Shown here piece by piece: positions 1 through 19,455 of a stretch of DNA of 64,000 bases. The stretch covers positions 1-64,000 of the forward strand of contig NZ_FUYE01000015.1 in assembly GCF_900167535.1 (NCBI RefSeq), read 5' to 3'. This DNA comes from Prosthecobacter debontii (GTDB taxonomy: Bacteria > Verrucomicrobiota > Verrucomicrobiia > Verrucomicrobiales > Verrucomicrobiaceae). Numbering within the stretch: position 1 is the stretch's first letter; every line of letters starts with the position of its first letter. A program made the translations under genes and the position numbers. The notes below the pieces were generated by a model that worked only from the letters and a program-made list of their open reading frames with translations, did not search any database and was not told where the DNA came from.

Positions 1-717
1 CCGCCACTGGCCGCTGTCGCGGTTGAACGGTGCTAGGCCTGCAAGTGCCGCGGCCTGCTCGCGTTTGAGGGAGCCGAGTTCGGGCATGTGGGCGCACAGG
101 CACAGGGCGCTGCGCCAGTCGATGCCAGCCGCTTCATCCAGCCGTTGTGACCTGGCCTGAAGTGCGGCGTTTTCAGCGGCGACTTCGCGCATCAAGGTTT
201 CGAGTTTGACGATTTCCAGGTTCAAGTTGGTCATGAGGCGTCTGATCTGGGCCGCCAACCAAAGGTCGGCATGTTGACGCAGGCGGGTTTTATAGCGGGC
301 GCGCTCCTCAACGAGGCTGTCGCGCTGGGCCACCAGCAGGGCCAGACGGGCAGTGGCGGGATCTGCGGGTGGAGTGGTCGCAGGCTTGAGGGCGGAGCCA
401 TAAGCAGCAAGGATGGAGGCATCGATGCGGTCGGTCTTGGCCAGGCGGTTTTGAGCGCGGGCGAAGTCACGGGGCAGGCGTGGATTGACGAGGCTGAGGG
501 GAATTTTGCCTTCGTGAAGAGCTTGGACCATGAGGCGCTCATAGCCGCCGGTGGCTTCGCAAATGACCTGCACAGAGCGAGGGTGTTTGGCGATGAGGTT
601 GCGCAGCTTGCGCACGCCGCAGGGAGTGTTTGGAAAGGAGTGATTTTGGGAGAGGAAGGCAACTTCGAGAGAGTCTTTGGAGACATCAACGCCGAGGTAG
701 ACAGGATCGGGGCACAT
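1..717 (-). mobile_element. IS110-family transposase, 5' part (runs off the window)
   Basis: The reverse strand is open from an ATG at 717 to the window edge and gives 239 residues of a DEDD transposase that moves its element through a circular intermediate. Seen: N-terminal YLGVDVSKDSLEV with Asp11, the CEATGGYE block with Glu54, KTDRIDA at 94-100 with the two further acidic residues, a helical stretch, and near the window edge LAGLAPFNRDSGQW, typical of the C-terminal Transposase_20 domain. The catalytic serine region lies outside the window. IS110 elements usually lack terminal inverted repeats and carry a long non-coding end upstream of the gene, which matches 718-990. The upstream sequence interrupts a NACHT gene. 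Family assignment is firm; whether the element is intact cannot be judged. Confidence 0.93.
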
Positions 718-990
718 GGATTAAATGGAAGGAGTTGGTGAGGGGTTGGATCAACCTTGTGGATACGAACTCTCGCAAAGCGCGAAAACGCCGTGTGAGG
801 TTCAGGCAACTGTTCGATCTCAGACCGATGAAGCAGAAGAGGGCCAAGCTGGGCTGCGAACTCCCGCAAGGGGTTCAAGGGCGAAGGGGCCTCTCTCCTG
901 CTTGGCGAAGGCGGGCGGCCGCCCGCCTTCGCCAAACCGGTTTTCAACTTATGCAGAACCTCTGCAAAGAAAGAAACCAAATGGATATAC
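718..990 (-). ncRNA. non-coding left end of the IS110 element, possible bridge RNA
   Basis: These 273 bases lie between the transposase start and the point where the neighbouring NACHT reading frame stops making sense. I see no convincing protein in them. Some IS110 elements encode a structured bridge RNA in this position, transcribed in the same direction as the transposase; that is knowledge of the family. Read on the minus strand the region offers several stems, for example GAACCCC...GGGAGTTC near 857-877 and the large palindrome at 902-935. The RNA assignment is inference from position and structure only, and both boundaries are estimates. Confidence 0.4.
902..935. repeat. 34-bp perfect palindrome
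   Basis: The left arm TTGGCGAAGGCGGGCGG is followed with no spacer by its exact reverse complement, giving a 17-bp perfect inverted repeat centred on a NotI-like GCGGCCGC. It lies in the non-coding end of the IS110 element. There is no T-run beside it, so it is a poor intrinsic terminator. It could be a cruciform or protein-binding site, or a REP-type palindrome captured by the element. No second copy was noticed in the window. Confidence 0.85.
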
Positions 991-2735
991 AAGGGGGCGA
1001 GATAGAGGAGCTCTGCTAGCCACGTATGGACCATTAGCTGTGCGAGCTGCCTGCTATTCAAGTCCCTCGTGTGGTCAGCAGGCGGCGTTGACTCAAGGCG
1101 CTTATGCACCTCCGCCTCGTCATACCCCACGACTCGTGAGGTGATGAGGAAGCGGGCCTGGGGGTGGGCCTCGAAGCCTTCCCAGATGGCATCGCGGAGG
1201 GCGCGGCGTTTGGCGGGATCGCCGATCTCGTCGAGGCCGTCGAGCATGAACCAGGCCTCAGGGCTTTCCAGCAGGGCGGTCCAGGTGGTGTCATCGGTGG
1301 CGAGCGGGGCGGCCATGGCGGGTTTGTGCTCGTCATGCCGATGCCGCAGGAAGGTCTCCAGCAGGGTTGCCCAGGTCCATTTCTCCAGCTCCCTCGGCAT
1401 GTCCCGCACGACCTCGCGCAGGATGATGGGCAGAGGGATGATCTTGCCAAAGGGGGCGATGTCCTTGGACGGCACCGGAGCGGCCAGGGCGGTGACGAGC
1501 CACTGGATGAGCGTGCTTTTGCCCATGCCCGGATCGGCTAGCAGGACGACGCGCCGATCCTTGACCAAGCGGGGGAGCAGGGCCTCGGTTTTGGTTTGCC
1601 CGTTCTTCATGGCTTCCTGCATCTCCTCCGGGCTGACCCGCTGCTCCGTGCAGGTGGGCTGGACAAAGAGATCCACGATCTTATCCGGCCCCTGCTTCTG
1701 CTTCGGGTCCTCCACCGCCGGGATGCCGACGGCGTTGTGGATGGAGAAGCGGGCGGTGAGGTTAGCCTTGTAGCGGGTAATCGCGGTGATGTGGAGTTGG
1801 TTGGCGGTGAGGTTTTCTAGATAGGCGTGGGTGGTTGCGTCGCGAGCTTTGCTCTGGGTGTCGCCATGATCCACGCTGCTCTGGAGGGCGTCCAGCTTGC
1901 CATCCATGGCCGCCAGGAGGGCGCTGTCTGTCTCATGGGCGGTGATGAAGGCGGTGAGCTTGGCGTTCAGTCCGGCGATCTGCTGCGGGAGGCGCTGCAC
2001 GGTGCGGCGGACTTCATTGAGCATGAGCCGCTGAGTGGCGATGCGGAGGCGCTGGTGGTCCTTGTCCTTCAGCACGCTGCCAAAGGCGGCGGGGAACTCG
2101 ATGGCCAGGGCAGCGAGGGTTTGCCGACGGAACTCGGACGCTCCGCCGAGATGGGGCAGGTCGGTGGCGCACAGGCTCTCAATGACCGGGGCCAGGACGG
2201 TGTCATACCACTGGGCGAGCAGGGTATCTGCTGTGGAGGCGAGGCTGTCATCCTGGAGGTCCAGGAAGGCGCTGTCCACCTGCCCGGCGGGGAAGAGGGC
2301 CTCGAAGGCGGCGCTGTCGCCCTTCTTCACGGCCTGCTGCATCTGGCTGCGCAGGTGGTCGGCGGCCTGGTTCAGGCAGCGAGTGATGAGTGAGTGTTTG
2401 GCCGCGCTTTGCCCTACGCTCTGGGCATACCGCCGGGGCACGGGCCCGCGCAAGGCCTGCTCCAGGGAAAGAATGAGGGCGCGGCGGAAGTCGTGTTTGA
2501 AGTCCGGGTAGTCTGCCGGTGCCTGGAAGGCGCGGGGAAAGGCATCGGCGGCGATGTTTCCCAGCAGGCCGCCAATGGAGTCGCCCAACTGCTCCTCGCT
2601 GCCCAGGGTATCCCCCAGCAGGTCATAGGTCATGTCACCCAGGAGGCTGCCCGCGTATCCGACCAGGGGGCCGCCAATGGCGACGCCGATGCCAATGCCA
2701 GCCAGACGACAGCAGGTGCGCGCGGGGAATTTCAT
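991..2735 (-). pseudogene. NACHT-domain NTPase, 3' part lost at the IS110 junction
   Basis: From the ATG at 2735 about 581 residues read as a STAND/NACHT ATPase. Residues 10-60 are Gly/Ala-rich and hydrophobic and may insert in a membrane; 80-390 is a mostly helical linker; Walker A ADPGMGKST is at 400-408, Walker B FMLDGLDE at 496-503, then FLITSRVVGYDE at 529-540. The conserved continuation after ELLYLAP (normally Phe-Asp-Asp and a winged helix) is missing. From about position 990 the frame reads through IS110 non-coding sequence. Bacterial NACHT proteins often sense phage and trigger cell suicide through a C-terminal sensor, which would be lost here. The open frame upstream of 2735 shows no family likeness, so I start at MKFPART. 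A defence role is inference. Confidence 0.8.
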
Positions 2736-3226
2736 GGGCCGGATGATGGAGAAGCCGCTTAGTCCCGGCAAGCGCAAGCTAGGATATTTTGCACGGTGGC
2801 TCACTCGTCCGTGACCGAACCCATGGGGCGCGAGTATGCCGAAGCGAGGCAACGCACCCTTTGTTTGGTTTGGGTAAGCTTTGAGGGCCAGGGCTGAGAC
2901 AGTATCGGTGAGCCGACGCATATGGTGTAGGACTGCGGGGCGCTGGGAAAGTGAGGCGAGTGGTCTTCGACACACTCGCGCTCCGGTCGCTCGGTTTGCC
3001 TGGCGGTAGGGTCCAGGAGTGGGGGCTCCCAGCCCTCAGCCCGGATGTGTGAGGCCAAGCTGGCCTCACGCCTTGGGGGAAGCGAAGCGCTGGATGGCCT
3101 TGAGCTGCTCGGAGCCCCGCCTTGAAGCTGACTCAGGGGAGGCCCGATGCCCCCGAACCTTCCGGCTGAAGCCGGGGCTCCTAACGGGTTGAGCCTTCGT
3201 GGGGGGAATGGCCCTCGGATGCGGGT
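2736..3226. other. 491-bp gene-free stretch with short dyads
   Basis: No credible protein or RNA gene was found between the NACHT remnant and the PEP-CTERM gene. Near the end are two dyads: CCGGCT-GA-AGCCGG at 3162-3175, and GGAGCCCCG (3111-3119) matched by CGGGGCTCC (3173-3181). The second pair is separated by 53 bases. The motif resembles intergenic repeats but no second copy was seen here. Promoters of the NACHT gene, or the 3' end signals of the PEP-CTERM gene, could lie in this stretch. Confidence 0.5.
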
Positions 3227-6200
3227 TTACCGCACGGATGCGGGTTTCCGCCGACGCATGAGGAGGAAGCCCAGGCCAAGCCCGAACAGCAGGAGGCGGG
3301 AGGGCTCGGGGACGATGTAAACGATGCCGTGGCTTTGGAAGAGGGAGGTGTCCCAGGAGAGGCCGATGTTGGTGATGTCGGGGAGCTCGAGGATGCCTGC
3401 GACGTCGCTTTGACTGATGCCGGCGATGCCGAGGCCGGAGAAGTCGAAGAGGTCAAAGACCATGCCGCTCTGGTAGGTGATGCCGGTGGGGATGATCTGG
3501 ACTCGGGTATCGGCATGGAAGGTGAGGGTGCCGGTGACCTCCAGGGAATCGTGCTGGCTGCCGGAGGGGTCAAGATCGCCCAGGGCCAGGATGGCTAGGT
3601 TGCGGGTGGCCTGATCCTGGCCGGGATCAATGAAGGCGAGGGCGCCCTGAATCTGCACCTGAATGAGGGCATCGGCGAGGAAGCTGGCGCTGGAATTCAC
3701 GGTGAGGGTGCCGATGGCGGTGCCGCGTGTGCCACCTGGAAGAACGGTGCCTGCCACGGTGATGGCGCGGCCGAGGGTGCCATTGCCACCGAGGGTGCCT
3801 GTGGCAGCGACCTGGAAGGCCGCGCTGGGAGTGAAGGTCTGCTGCTGGATGTAGAGGGCTCCATCCACCTGGGTCAGGCTGCTGAGCTGGAACAGACTGG
3901 CGCCGGTGCCGATGAGCTCGACGGTGGCGTCCTCGCCGATGCGCTGGATGCCGGTGGTGTTGCCAAAGGGATCGAGATCAATGGTGGCGAGGCCGGTCTG
4001 AGTGGCATTGGCGATCCAGGTGCCGCCGGTGAGCGTGCCTGCACCATCGTTTTGCACGAGGGTGATGTCATCGAAGGTGCCGGAGGCGGCGGTGGTGATG
4101 CGGAAGTTGCCGCCGAGCACCTCGACCGTGCCTTGGTTATCAAAGGTGCCTGCGCCTGTGTCGGAGCTGAAGCTGAAGAACTGCGCCTGATCGCCACTGG
4201 CGTCCGAGGCTTGCTTTTGAATGAGGCCGCCCGGGGCATTGGTGAAGGTATAACCATCGCGCATTTCGAAGTCGCCGATGTTGCCAAAGATGAAGCTGCC
4301 GTTGTTGACGAACTGGCCTCCCGACGTGCTGCCCGTGAGGTTATCGTTGGTGGTGCTGGGGCTGTGATTGAAGGTGCCGTTGTTGATGAAGGTGCCATTG
4401 CCCGCAAGCACTCGATTGCCATCTCCATTGACATTGAAGACACCGTCATTGACCACGCTCAAACCACTGGCGATCGAGAGTGTGGCGGTGCTGTTCCACT
4501 CGACGGTGCCGGTGGCGGCATTGAGCCACTGGCCCGCGCCGGTGAGTGCGCGGGTGCCGGTGCCGTTGATGTTGAAGGTGCCTTCGTTGCGCAGGCGCGT
4601 ATCCGCCGCGATGCTGAGGGTGGTGGCCACATCCCAGTTGAAGCTGCCTGTGCTGCCATTGAGGAACTGACCGCCATCTTTGAGGGACCGGGTGCCGGTG
4701 CCGGAGATGGTAAAGATGCCGTCATTGCGGAAGAGGACGGTGGAGGTGATGCCCAAGCCGCCGCCGGACCAATCCACGCTGCCGGTGCTGTCGTTGATGA
4801 ATGACCCCGTGCCCTCATAGCTGCTGTCGCCACTGCCGGTCTGGATGTTCCAGGTGCCTTGGTTCCTGAAGGTGCTGTTATCGGAGATGGTGAGCAGGCC
4901 GTCGGTGTGGTTGAAGACACCGCCTGCGGCGTTGATGAACTCGCCACCGCCGCTCAGTGTCTTGGTGCCGCCAACGGTGACGCCGAAAATGCCACTGTTG
5001 GTCAGGGTGTTGCCCTGGGTGAGGATGGTCTGCTGCGACCACACGATGCCATTGCCGCTGATGTTGAGCGTGAGCCCCGCCGTGCCAATGCTGAGGTCAC
5101 TGGCCACGGAGCCGTTGCCGCTGTTGGCGATGCGGAAGGATGAGCTGGAACTGCCTTTGATGACGCCGGTCCATTCCCCGGCAATGTCTAAAGAGCCGCC
5201 GTCAGCCGTCCAGGTCGCGGTTTCCACACTGGTGCCGCCAGAGGCTAAGCGGAGAAAACCGACGGTGGCCTGGATCTCACTGCCATCCATGGCGTGGAAT
5301 TTACCCACGCCGAAGACGAAGCTAGGGTCTCCACTGCTGGAGGTCTTCTTCAGGAGGCCTTTGTTCTCAAAGCTGCTGGTGTTGAGGAACTGGAGATCGC
5401 CCGCACCTTGGAAGTCGTAGGTGTCGGTGTTTTCATAGACGACGGAGTTGGTGAGGACGAAGTTATCGTTACCGCCACTCTGGATGTGGTTGAAGGTGCC
5501 GTTATTGATGAAACGACCTGTGCCTGCCAGGGTGGCGTTGTTGCCGTCAATGAATTGGGCGGTGCCATTGTTGATGACTTGATTGCCGTTCAAGGAGAGC
5601 GTGCCGCGATTGAAGGTCATCAGTCCTGCAGCAGTGGTCGTCAGCGTGCCTGTCCCTCCCAGAACGATGGTGCCGGTGCTATTCATGACGAGGGTGCCAT
5701 CATTGCGGATGTTGGCATTCGCCGTGAGGTTGCCTTGCGTCAGAGTGAACGTGCCATCGGTGGCATTGATCAGGGTGCCGGTGCCCGCCAGCGTGATGGT
5801 GGTGGACGTGGTGCTGCCTTGCAGCGTCATGCTGCCATGGTTGGTGAAGTTGGCGTCCGTGAGAGTCAGGGTGCCGGACTCCAGTCTGAATTCTCCATCG
5901 GTGCCGTTTTCCACACTGCCAGTGCCCTGGACCGTGGCTCCCGTGCCCGCGAGGCGCAGAAGGCCGTCGTTGCGGAGAGTATTGCCATTGCCATCCAGGA
6001 TCCCGGTGGTCCACAGGAGGCCGCCGCCCGTGATGTCCAGGATGGTGGTAGCTGCCTGAGCGGAAAAGATGCCACCGGTGCTTCCGGCAGGGTTTTCATT
6101 GGTGAGGGCCACGGAGCCGCTGCCCGTCATGCTGGAGACTCCACGGAGCAGGCTCCAGCCACCCGTGAAGGATAAGGTCGCCCCACTGGCAACGGTGAAA

Positions 6201-6781
6201 TTACCCCCGGTGGATGCCGCCGCTCCGGCACTGGTCGAAGCCCCAGAGATATTAAGATGACCCGCATCCACTTGGATATCGCCATTGTTGACGAAGGCTC
6301 CCCCCGTCGTGCTGCTGAGTGGGAAGAAATAGGAAGGATCATTGGCCGAGCCATCGGTGCCCTGGGTCTTATGAATGAGGCCGTTGTTGGTGAATGTGGT
6401 GCCTGCCGAATTGAGACGTAGATCAGCTCCGCAGTCGATTTGAAGCACGCCTGCATTGATGATCTTGGCTGAACCATTGAGAACGATGTTGTCATTGCTG
6501 CTGTTGGTATCCAGAAGCAGCCGACCCCCCTCATCAATTTGAAGGGTGCCGGGGCCATTGAAGTTGCGACCTCCCGAGCCACCGGTGGAGTTGAAGGTGA
6601 CAATGGCCCCGGTGGGGATATTCACCAGGATGCCCGAGTTGATGGTGATATCTCCGCCGGTCCAGGTATCTCCGTCAGCGAGAGTGGTGTTCGTGCTGAA
6701 CGTGCCTGCGATATCAACCCCGAAGGCTGAAGACAGGGCAGCAGTTAACAAAAGAAAGGGGACCAAGAAGTGACGAAGCAT
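3227..6781 (-). CDS. large PEP-CTERM protein with beta-strand repeats
   Basis: This 1184-residue protein has a signal peptide (about 1-22, MLRHFLVPFLLLTAALSSAFG). Its body is Gly/Thr/Asn-rich imperfect repeats of the type 'GTFINNGTFN' and 'TGSFNW', as in autotransporter-associated beta-strand or filamentous-adhesin-like beta-solenoids. It ends with VPEPSRLLLFGLGLGFLLMRRR: a PEP motif at about 1157, a hydrophobic helix and an Arg cluster at 1176-1178. That is a PEP-CTERM sorting signal, cleaved by an exosortase in known systems. The protein is therefore expected at the surface or in extracellular matrix. No exosortase gene is in the window. The repeats produce long open frames on the other strand that are not genes. 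Function beyond a surface structural or adhesive role is unknown. Confidence 0.92.
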   Translation of the reverse strand: MLRHFLVPFLLLTAALSSAFGVDIAGTFSTNTTLADGDTWTGGDITINSGILVNIPTGAIVTFNSTGGSGGRNFNGPGTLQIDEGGRLLLDTNSSNDNIVLNGSAKIINAGVLQIDCGADLRLNSAGTTFTNNGLIHKTQGTDGSANDPSYFFPLSSTTGGAFVNNGDIQVDAGHLNISGASTSAGAAASTGGNFTVASGATLSFTGGWSLLRGVSSMTGSGSVALTNENPAGSTGGIFSAQAATTILDITGGGLLWTTGILDGNGNTLRNDGLLRLAGTGATVQGTGSVENGTDGEFRLESGTLTLTDANFTNHGSMTLQGSTTSTTITLAGTGTLINATDGTFTLTQGNLTANANIRNDGTLVMNSTGTIVLGGTGTLTTTAAGLMTFNRGTLSLNGNQVINNGTAQFIDGNNATLAGTGRFINNGTFNHIQSGGNDNFVLTNSVVYENTDTYDFQGAGDLQFLNTSSFENKGLLKKTSSSGDPSFVFGVGKFHAMDGSEIQATVGFLRLASGGTSVETATWTADGGSLDIAGEWTGVIKGSSSSSFRIANSGNGSVASDLSIGTAGLTLNISGNGIVWSQQTILTQGNTLTNSGIFGVTVGGTKTLSGGGEFINAAGGVFNHTDGLLTISDNSTFRNQGTWNIQTGSGDSSYEGTGSFINDSTGSVDWSGGGLGITSTVLFRNDGIFTISGTGTRSLKDGGQFLNGSTGSFNWDVATTLSIAADTRLRNEGTFNINGTGTRALTGAGQWLNAATGTVEWNSTATLSIASGLSVVNDGVFNVNGDGNRVLAGNGTFINNGTFNHSPSTTNDNLTGSTSGGQFVNNGSFIFGNIGDFEMRDGYTFTNAPGGLIQKQASDASGDQAQFFSFSSDTGAGTFDNQGTVEVLGGNFRITTAASGTFDDITLVQNDGAGTLTGGTWIANATQTGLATIDLDPFGNTTGIQRIGEDATVELIGTGASLFQLSSLTQVDGALYIQQQTFTPSAAFQVAATGTLGGNGTLGRAITVAGTVLPGGTRGTAIGTLTVNSSASFLADALIQVQIQGALAFIDPGQDQATRNLAILALGDLDPSGSQHDSLEVTGTLTFHADTRVQIIPTGITYQSGMVFDLFDFSGLGIAGISQSDVAGILELPDITNIGLSWDTSLFQSHGIVYIVPEPSRLLLFGLGLGFLLMRRRKPASVR

Positions 6782-17964: not shown

Positions 17965-19455
17965 CTACCGAGAAGAGAGTTGAGCATCGGAAGCGCGCGC
18001 CTGTTTGCGGCGGTCGAGCAGCTTCACTTCTTTGAGCAGCTTGCCGACTCCGAGGCGCTCACGCATGTCCGCAAGGTCATGCAGGTGAATGGCATTGGGT
18101 TTGATTTCGGTGACCTCGGCAAAGCGGCGTTGGATGCGCTGCTCTAGCGTATTTGATTCAGTGCCTCGCTCAGGTGCGACGTGCAGGATAAGCTCATCGA
18201 CTTCATGAGGATCGTCATGGCGTTTGCAGAGCTCGATCTGCCAGGCTGCGACACCTTTTTGATCATCCAGGAGATGTTCCAAGATATTGAAATTCACCAA
18301 GGTGCCTTTGATCTTGTCCAGATGCAGCTCACGGACTTCACTCACGCGACTGATGGGACCCAGTAAGCGAGGGCAAGTGCGACCACAGTAGGGGCAGCGA
18401 GACCAAGTGAGGCCTCCTTCCGCAATGTCCCCGGTGCGGTAGCGTAGGACCACAGTGCCACGGGCGTCCAGCGGAGTGAAGACGATCTCTCCCGGGTGCC
18501 CGTCAGGAACGGGGAGGCCGTTTTGCGGAGAAACGAGTTCAATCATCGCCAGATCAGGGCTGATATGGAAGCCACTGCCCGTCTCAGCAGGGCATTCGGG
18601 GAAGGCCATCTTCGCTTCGGTAAAGCCGTAGGTGCTGATGACATAGACATGTTCACTGCCTAGCTCTGCGGCCAATGCGATTAGGCGAGCGCGTAAGCCC
18701 TCGGCGACTTTTTCGCCACCGAGGACGATGCGTTTGAGGTTAGGCCAATGCCTCCCCGTTTCGACAGCCTCACGCATGAGATGATACATGAAGGTGGGCA
18801 TGCCGATCAGCACATCGGGTTGGATCCGATCGATCAGATTCATATTGCCTTCGGTGCCTAGGCTCTTACCTCCACCGGTGCTGACCATGAAGGTGCCGAA
18901 ACCGAGCCCTGCGTGGTGGGTTTGCCAGAAGGCGAGATGCGGTGCAAAAGGGAAGGCGTTGATGTGGCGAAAATCCTTCTGAGAGCGCCCACATTCCATC
19001 AAGCGGCGGCCGGCGATATCGAGGTTATGAAGGTCGTGCTTGGTGAAAAGGAAGGGCACCGGGTCCGAGGAACGCCCAGTCGTGCTGGTGAGCATGACGG
19101 GACGAAACTCCTCTTCAATGGCGTTCTTTGCGGCTTCACGGCCATGCAGTAGTGCGTTTTTTATGACGCTCCATTCTCGGCGGAGAACCGCTTCTTCGGG
19201 CATCAGCACGAACTCACGCTGCTGATCCCTAGGCACGGTCAGGTCGCTCTTGCTGGTGAAGGGGACATGAGCCCAGTCTTCCAGGCTGCGAAGATCCTGA
19301 ACTGTCAGATCATGTTCCTTAAACAGTCGCCGGTAGTGGGTGCTAAAAGGGAGCACGCGCTGGCTGAGGTAGGTGCGGAGACGATGGAGTTGCCAGTCCT
19401 TCCAGACCTCACGCGGCGCAGAGTCCCAAGCAGGGGTTGTCGATAGAATTTTCAT
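17965..19455 (-). CDS. PaaK-like adenylate-forming enzyme (probable acyl-CoA ligase)
   Basis: From the ATG at 19455 (MKILSTTPAWDS) 496 residues resemble phenylacetate-CoA ligase-type AMP-binding proteins. Seen: LTSTTGRSSDPVPF, corresponding to the phosphate loop; STYGFTEAKMAFPEC, corresponding to the adenine motif; and RYRTGDIAEGG, the conserved aspartate block. It is followed by the Cys pair CPYCGRTCPRLLG often seen in this subgroup. Such enzymes activate carboxylic acids as acyl-AMP and usually pass them to CoA. Sitting between a lipase and the beta-oxidation genes, it probably activates released fatty acids. The start overlaps the patatin gene by 47 bp. Substrate is inferred. Confidence 0.82.
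   Translation of the reverse strand: MKILSTTPAWDSAPREVWKDWQLHRLRTYLSQRVLPFSTHYRRLFKEHDLTVQDLRSLEDWAHVPFTSKSDLTVPRDQQREFVLMPEEAVLRREWSVIKNALLHGREAAKNAIEEEFRPVMLTSTTGRSSDPVPFLFTKHDLHNLDIAGRRLMECGRSQKDFRHINAFPFAPHLAFWQTHHAGLGFGTFMVSTGGGKSLGTEGNMNLIDRIQPDVLIGMPTFMYHLMREAVETGRHWPNLKRIVLGGEKVAEGLRARLIALAAELGSEHVYVISTYGFTEAKMAFPECPAETGSGFHISPDLAMIELVSPQNGLPVPDGHPGEIVFTPLDARGTVVLRYRTGDIAEGGLTWSRCPYCGRTCPRLLGPISRVSEVRELHLDKIKGTLVNFNILEHLLDDQKGVAAWQIELCKRHDDPHEVDELILHVAPERGTESNTLEQRIQRRFAEVTEIKPNAIHLHDLADMRERLGVGKLLKEVKLLDRRKQARASDAQLSSR

Follow-up and report, generated by a model that had tools for sequence, protein, structure and literature searches.

A probable bridge RNA of the IS621 kind, with a palindromic 5′ stem-loop, in an IS110-group element of Prosthecobacter debontii

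The IS110-Group Element and Its Ends

The DNA analysed here (the window, 64,000 nucleotides of Prosthecobacter debontii; NCBI RefSeq assembly GCF_900167535.1, contig NZ_FUYE01000015.1, positions 1 to 64,000) is the start of a contig that we designate C15, and it begins inside an IS110-group element. Positions 1 to 717 (minus strand) hold the first 239 codons of an IS110 recombinase gene (PF01548, E 6.5e-27), the contig starting inside the gene, and the non-coding left end (LE) occupies positions 718 to 991 on the same strand. The first-pass annotation had placed about 270 bp of non-coding DNA upstream of a DEDD transposase, and this description holds: the LE measures 274 bp and directly precedes the transposase (tnp) reading frame, which runs from 717 to 1. 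The remainder of the recombinase was taken from contig C23, which overlaps the window exactly across its first 459 bases; the protein joined from the two contigs through these identical bases is 310 aa long, combines PF01548 with PF02371, and has all of the residues D11, E54, D96, D99 and S235.

A second copy of the element has its left flank on contig C27 and its right flank on C20. C27 is identical to the window over 994 bases and divergent thereafter, which delimits the LE, and C23 and C20 terminate inside the element from the opposite side, with 691 bases common to both. We infer the pairing of C15 with C23 and of C27 with C20, because the flanks joined in this way read as continuous sequence. 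Assembled from these overlapping contigs, the element spans 1,218 bp between two CT cores. The core at the left (992 to 993, minus strand) was placed from the ends, the empty site and a comparison with related elements, and is present as a single copy in the empty site; base 994, common to both copies, is either part of the target or shared by chance. Core and LE start together form the right donor CTTGTAT (987 to 993, minus strand), and E. coli IS621 starts CTTGTATTATCC. At the other end, the stop codon and the right core are 11 bp apart.

By its sequence the element can be assigned to the IS110 family and, within it, to the IS110 group: a DEDD RuvC-like domain (PF01548) is followed by a C-terminal PF02371 domain with the conserved serine, a long non-coding end lies upstream of tnp, the right end is short, and insertion is scarless around a short core. 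Membership of the IS1111 group was considered and rejected on account of the 11-bp right end and of the RNA model described below, which matches in the left end and not in a long right end. The element shares with seekRNAs of IS110 type (PMC11187229) the long non-coding region upstream of tnp and two short target complements, and differs from those of IS1111 type in the few bases between stop codon and right core. The same genome encodes another PF01548 protein, in a 415-aa frame (L066, G000:C30:24748-25089), which is not matched by the window element's recombinase at E 1e-3.

Two Insertion Sites

When the flanks on C15 and C23 are joined with one CT, a single open reading frame runs through the junction and encodes a NACHT-LRR protein. 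The 5′ part of this interrupted gene lies at 994 to 2975 (minus strand; PF05729) and the LRR on the other half, on C23. An uninterrupted homologue in genome G042 covers residues 3-439 of the 445-residue query and aligns across the junction gap-free, with 41% identity over 91 residues. The left target half of this insertion, TCGCCCC, is found at 994 to 1000 (minus strand), inside the gene. Further along the window, a long repetitive open reading frame occupies 3227 to 6781 (minus strand), with a C-terminal motif that we take to resemble a PEP-CTERM sorting signal.

Joining C27 and C20 yields an uninterrupted repeat about 430 bp long that contains several hairpins. Elsewhere in the genome, six copies at 86-90% identity continue through the insertion point without a break, and two more distant ones do so only in pieces. 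With a 161-bp piece of the repeat as query, 14 matches are found in the genome, including the two halves split by the element, and 9 of 47 genomes of the genus, the source genome among them, have matches; these counts come from scoring part of the candidates. The intergenic, dispersed copies of the source genome comprise L202-L206, L209 and eight further matches. The repeat is REP/BIME-like.

Structure and Conservation of the Left End

Several stem-loops had been noted in the LE at first sight, and they exceed chance expectation: 210 nt of its minus strand have a predicted folding energy of -94.7 kcal/mol, with z = -6.2 relative to dinucleotide shuffles. The opposite strand folds well too (z = -4.7), so that folding alone does not choose the strand; the covariance model and the guides choose the minus strand. 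A search of the LE region against Rfam returned no family match.

Read in the direction of transcription of tnp, the LE comprises an extra first stem-loop (939 to 978, predicted fold), a 5′ stem-loop that is a perfect 34-bp palindrome with the apex GGCC (902 to 935), a target-binding module (833 to 901, delimited by fold and covariation) and a donor-binding module (749 to 819), all on the minus strand. The target-binding module consists of a closing stem, the left target guide, an inner stem-loop and the right target guide. Its left guide, CTTCGCC, lies at 880 to 886 and is recognised by its sequence and target matches, with a core guide CT at 878-879; its right guide, CAGCCCAG, lies at 849 to 856 and is the complement of CT|GGGCTG, matching 7/7 in the C27/C20 copy and 6/7 in the C15/C23 copy. 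The donor-binding module, assigned from sequence and the covariance model and with two poorly kept closing-stem pairs, carries the left donor guide ACAGTTG at 807 to 813, equal to the element's right end before its core. Its putative right donor guide, AT[CC]ACAAG at 756 to 764, was recognised by inspection and places nine bases opposite the seven of CTTGTAT, a pattern like that of the IS621 right donor guide, which likewise pairs nine bases on seven (PMC11208160).

A covariance model of the two modules (R1), trained on three sequences (the window element and its relatives L017 and L018), finds the E. coli IS621 bridge RNA where it is known to lie, with an E-value of 1.3e-5. Among 54 sources, which include the training rows, an identical second copy (L010) and six second fetches of one place, the model matches 47 at E <= 0.01 and misses seven (L054, L057, L070, L073, L074, L080 and L173); four of its 51 matches are second matches and probably false. 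In the window, itself a training sequence, it matches 748-901 on the minus strand and nothing else at E <= 5. Elsewhere in the source genome, a diverged bridge-RNA match (E 6.4e-6) is found at both ends of contig C31 (L200 and L201, G000:C31:25-183 and 18274-18432), and probably belongs to another IS110 element.

In the alignment of 44 distinct rows, which was fitted to the model and hence is biased toward the structure, both sides vary in 28 of 31 pairs and 91% of cells are paired; the covariation score reaches 0.62, compared with 0.06-0.09 when the structure is slid. Two pairs in the closing stem of the donor module are mostly lost. The unfitted alignment of the element with L017 and L018 has four of 31 pairs changing on both sides and a score of 0.204, against 0-0.111 for slid structures. 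Covariation among related elements, on which the first-pass annotation had made its proposal of a bridge RNA depend, is therefore present in both alignments, and the LE has a conserved secondary structure with two guide loops that is related to the bridge RNA of IS621.

The resemblance to IS621 (PMC11208160, PMC11208158) extends to the location in the left end and the order of 5′ stem-loop, target loop and donor loop, and the two elements have in common the CT core, the right donor CTTGTAT, the nine-on-seven right donor guide and the targeting of repeated palindromic elements. The recombinases are of similar size (310 aa here, 326 aa in IS621) and differ in sequence, with 27.5% identity in the tblastn match. 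The window element also differs in its longer LE with one more stem-loop, as judged by inspection, and in its guides and host repeat. In two E. coli copies of IS621 (L062, 1785-1940, and L063) the LE begins with a partial tandem self-repeat, in which the 5′ stem-loop and part of the target module are present twice.

Guides Track Their Own Junctions

The guides were compared with the junctions of the window element (two insertions) and of 30 fetched relatives; flanks and ends were taken for each element, and the expected position of the target guides was not used. L051, whose contig starts at tnp, was unusable and left out of all guide tests. The right-target and donor tests were run without L019, L039 and L056, for which no right end was found, and the right-target test also without L037, which has four bases of flank only. 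The left-target test excluded L045, L047, L048, L053 and L056, whose left boundary is doubtful or was not found, and L021, L040, L049 and L054, whose contigs begin within 7 bases of the core.

The reverse complement of an insertion's own right-target 7-mer (CT plus five bases) is matched in its LE at a mean of 6.67 of 7 positions, against 5.28 for the targets of other insertions, and none of 20,000 permutations did as well (n = 27 insertions). The match is perfect in 21 of the 27, and in 24 the best match is placed 39-45 nt ahead of the donor guide. Weak matches (5/7) are those of L040, L043 and L050, and the best match is off-position in L045, L046 and L050, so that the 7/7 match of L046 is probably not its guide. 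The signal of the left target (seven bases) is weaker, with a mean of 5.59 against 5.16 and 17 of 20,000 permutations as good (n = 22). The left donor guide matches at a mean of 6.96/7 over 28 cases (27 exact, one mismatch in L043; 0/20,000 permutations), and each of the three donor variants, ACAGTTG, ACCGTTG and ACCGCTG, is mirrored in the guide. At the level of the family, the target loop can thus pair with both strands of an element's own target, the left half less strongly. The first-pass annotation had staked its proposal on base-pairing between the loops and the junction sequences, and such pairing is found beyond permutations for right target, left target and donor.

Shared ancestry or base composition might produce such matches with no guidance involved, given that the elements are related and GC-rich and that the donor sequence is nearly constant. 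Permutation among elements preserves composition, however, and when five related rows are dropped the signals persist for the right target (23 rows, 0/20,000), the left target (18 rows, 26/20,000) and the donor (0/20,000). Targets, moreover, are no part of the element and do not descend with it; we regard this explanation as having almost no chance of being correct. It is also very improbable that the LE serves solely as a structured regulatory leader of the transposase, in the manner of the sRNAs and 5′-UTR structure described for ISPpu9, with no guide function. The LE is indeed highly structured and immediately precedes the transposase, and sRNA regulation has been published for ISPpu9; a leader explains neither the loop bases that track each element's own target and donor nor the match to the IS621 bridge RNA.

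We conclude, with a probability of about 0.96, that the LE encodes a bridge RNA of the IS621 kind. The original suggestion of an IS110 bridge RNA specifying donor and target is borne out by the IS621 match and by guides that appear to track the element's own target and donor. A self-complementary 5′ stem-loop, two modules of two guides each, the CT core and the scarless insertion can be read directly from the sequence. If the element behaves like IS621, excision would yield a circle joining its right end to its left end, and the bridge RNA would be transcribed and then bind the recombinase. The donor loop would pair with the circle junction ACAGTTG-CT-TGTAT and the target loop with CTTCGCC-CT-GGGCTG, and the recombinase would exchange strands at the CT core. 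A search for a sigma-70 promoter at the reconstituted junction gave no match above shuffles in 24 rows (best p 0.08), and the host's promoters may differ; in none of the 24 rows did a TTGC-17-TATNTT pattern, noticed by eye as a candidate junction promoter, exceed shuffles.

Target Preference and Host Repeats

The target predicted from the guides, CTTCGCC-CT-GGGCTG, is matched by the C27/C20 site at 12 of 13 non-core positions and by the uninterrupted repeat copies L202 and L209 at 13/13 (13/14 with one more base counted). Genome sites within two mismatches of TTCGCCCTGGGCTG number 112, against 40 for the reversed control pattern. The NACHT site matches 8/13 in register, a level reached by 1.2% of CT sites in the window. 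It had been expected at the outset that the target loop would match the NACHT-gene sequence around position 990: this is partly so, the right half matching at 5/6 plus the core and the left half at 3/7 in register, or 6/7 if slid by two bases; with two extra C allowed, the site reads TCG[CC]CCCTGGGATG. The best explanation is that the cognate target is one hairpin arm of the dispersed intergenic repeat and that insertion into the NACHT-LRR gene used a site that matches in part.

Relative L018, with a recombinase 60% identical, is inserted in a dispersed repeat of its own genome, G018, where that repeat has 41 matches (two of them the split halves), with none in G030. L018 departs from the window element in right target guide and right target alike (CTGGCTA against CTGGGCT); both L018 guides together fit less well, at 9 to 12 of 14 positions over 12 repeat copies. 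For these two elements at least, insertion thus seems to track repeats of the host, as that of IS621 tracks REP elements. In IS621, too, according to PMC11208160, the cognate of the guides is a hairpin arm in a dispersed intergenic repeat; the repeat described here differs from E. coli REP in its length of about 430 bp, its several hairpins, its sequence and its host. The locus adds an IS110 bridge RNA of clear limits for which the two insertion sites and the four guides are located, together with a relative that differs in its guides as well as in its host's repeat, a natural case of retargeting.

A Self-Complementary 5′ Stem-Loop

The 5′ stem-loop of the window element is a palindrome of 34 bp, whereas none of the shuffles of the LE (two runs of 200) exceeds 22. 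The arms differ at three bases each in L017 and L018, and all of these changes are compensated. The IS621 counterpart is a 28-nt near-palindrome with one mismatch and one G-U, and in copy L062 it shares the apex GGCC. For a survey of apices, 156 upstream regions were cut to 95 non-redundant ones by shared 11-mers; the distant relatives L020, L022-L024 and L026-L033 entered only this survey.

A hairpin with a score of at least 12 is present in 45 of the 95 left ends, and its central tetramer is self-complementary in 25. Among four-base loops, self-complementary apices amount to 24 of 29, against an expectation of 1 in 16; they read GGCC (13), CATG (3), GCGC (3), TGCA (2), AGCT (1), TTAA (1) and GTAC (1), and the others GACG (3), TAAA (1) and GCGG (1). 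At a score of at least 10, 26 of 52 are self-complementary, as compared with one of 24 hairpins elsewhere in the window and four of 62 in locus flanks (0/8 and 2/15, respectively, for four-base loops only), and in the last 130 bases before tnp the figure is 2/46 at a score of at least 6. The 30-bp palindrome of L050 was scored as a miss, a longer imperfect hairpin having outscored it. On a quick recombinase tree (95 rows, 28 palindromic, L050 set by hand), 14 changes are required for the palindromic state (no fewer than seven by starred branches) and nine for the apex sequence. State and apex thus change repeatedly on the tree, and a single hairpin passed down by descent does not account for them. 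The palindromic 5′ stem-loop is a new observation, in which self-complementarity of the apex is kept as its sequence changes; a literature search that took in few subscription papers and no bioRxiv preprints turned up no description of bridge RNAs with self-complementary 5′ stem-loops.

The palindromic apex is not universal, because a second class of 5′ stem-loops (L090, L100, L101, L104, L117, L119, L125, L127, L129, L131, L134 and L138) has non-palindromic 9-nt loops on mostly perfect 14-bp stems and makes up 11 of the 45 hairpins at a score of at least 12. Lineages lacking the palindromic apex include some with a GACG apex.

Two bridge RNAs appear to be needed, as the IS621 structure suggests, because the target and donor loops of the synapse come from two RNA molecules; Hiraizumi et al. 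(PMC11208158) infer two bridge RNAs per synaptic complex and report the 5′ stem-loop as not visible. We therefore raise, as a tentative and on balance doubtful suggestion drawn from sequence comparison, that across much of the IS110 group the self-complementary 5′ stem-loop may be a dimerisation hairpin that holds two bridge RNAs together, its sequence drifting while its self-complementarity is kept. Predicted homodimers of four palindromic sequences gain 17-21 kcal/mol over two hairpins, as any palindrome would. For one GACG hairpin the predicted gain is only 2.4 kcal/mol, kissing loops being outside this model.

It is more probable than not, on the other hand, that RNA dimerisation plays no part, and that the palindrome is a stabilising hairpin and nothing more (the role proposed in IS621), a site acting at the DNA level, or the product of palindrome repair by template switching. 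Deletion of the IS621 5′ stem-loop lowered RNA binding and only slightly reduced recombination, according to Hiraizumi et al. (PMC11208158); the palindromic stems (26 rows) contain 357 Watson-Crick pairs, four G-U pairs and three mismatches, so nearly no G-U pairs, as a constraint or repair at the DNA level would give, with G-U and mismatch counts too small to separate a constraint on the RNA from one on the DNA; and the 9-nt loops of the related class are not palindromic. Yet self-complementarity at the apex is more than a plain hairpin requires, and GNRA and UNCG tetraloops are absent from the 29 four-base apices; repair of the arms would not render the apex palindromic; and three of the non-palindromic apices are GACG, a sequence that may contribute to retroviral RNA dimerisation (PMC516450). 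The dimerisation proposal, if true, would give a role to a part of the bridge RNA that is unseen in the IS621 structure (PMC11208158), and such an element would matter to those who build tools from bridge recombinases.

A long hairpin of another kind is found near the start of the LE in a sub-branch comprising L041, L046, L049, L054, L056, L057, L059 and L060. Its inner part, YCGAGAATGGG...CTCGTCGGAG, is conserved and its flanking stem varies, and L056 differs in carrying T where the second half has its first C.
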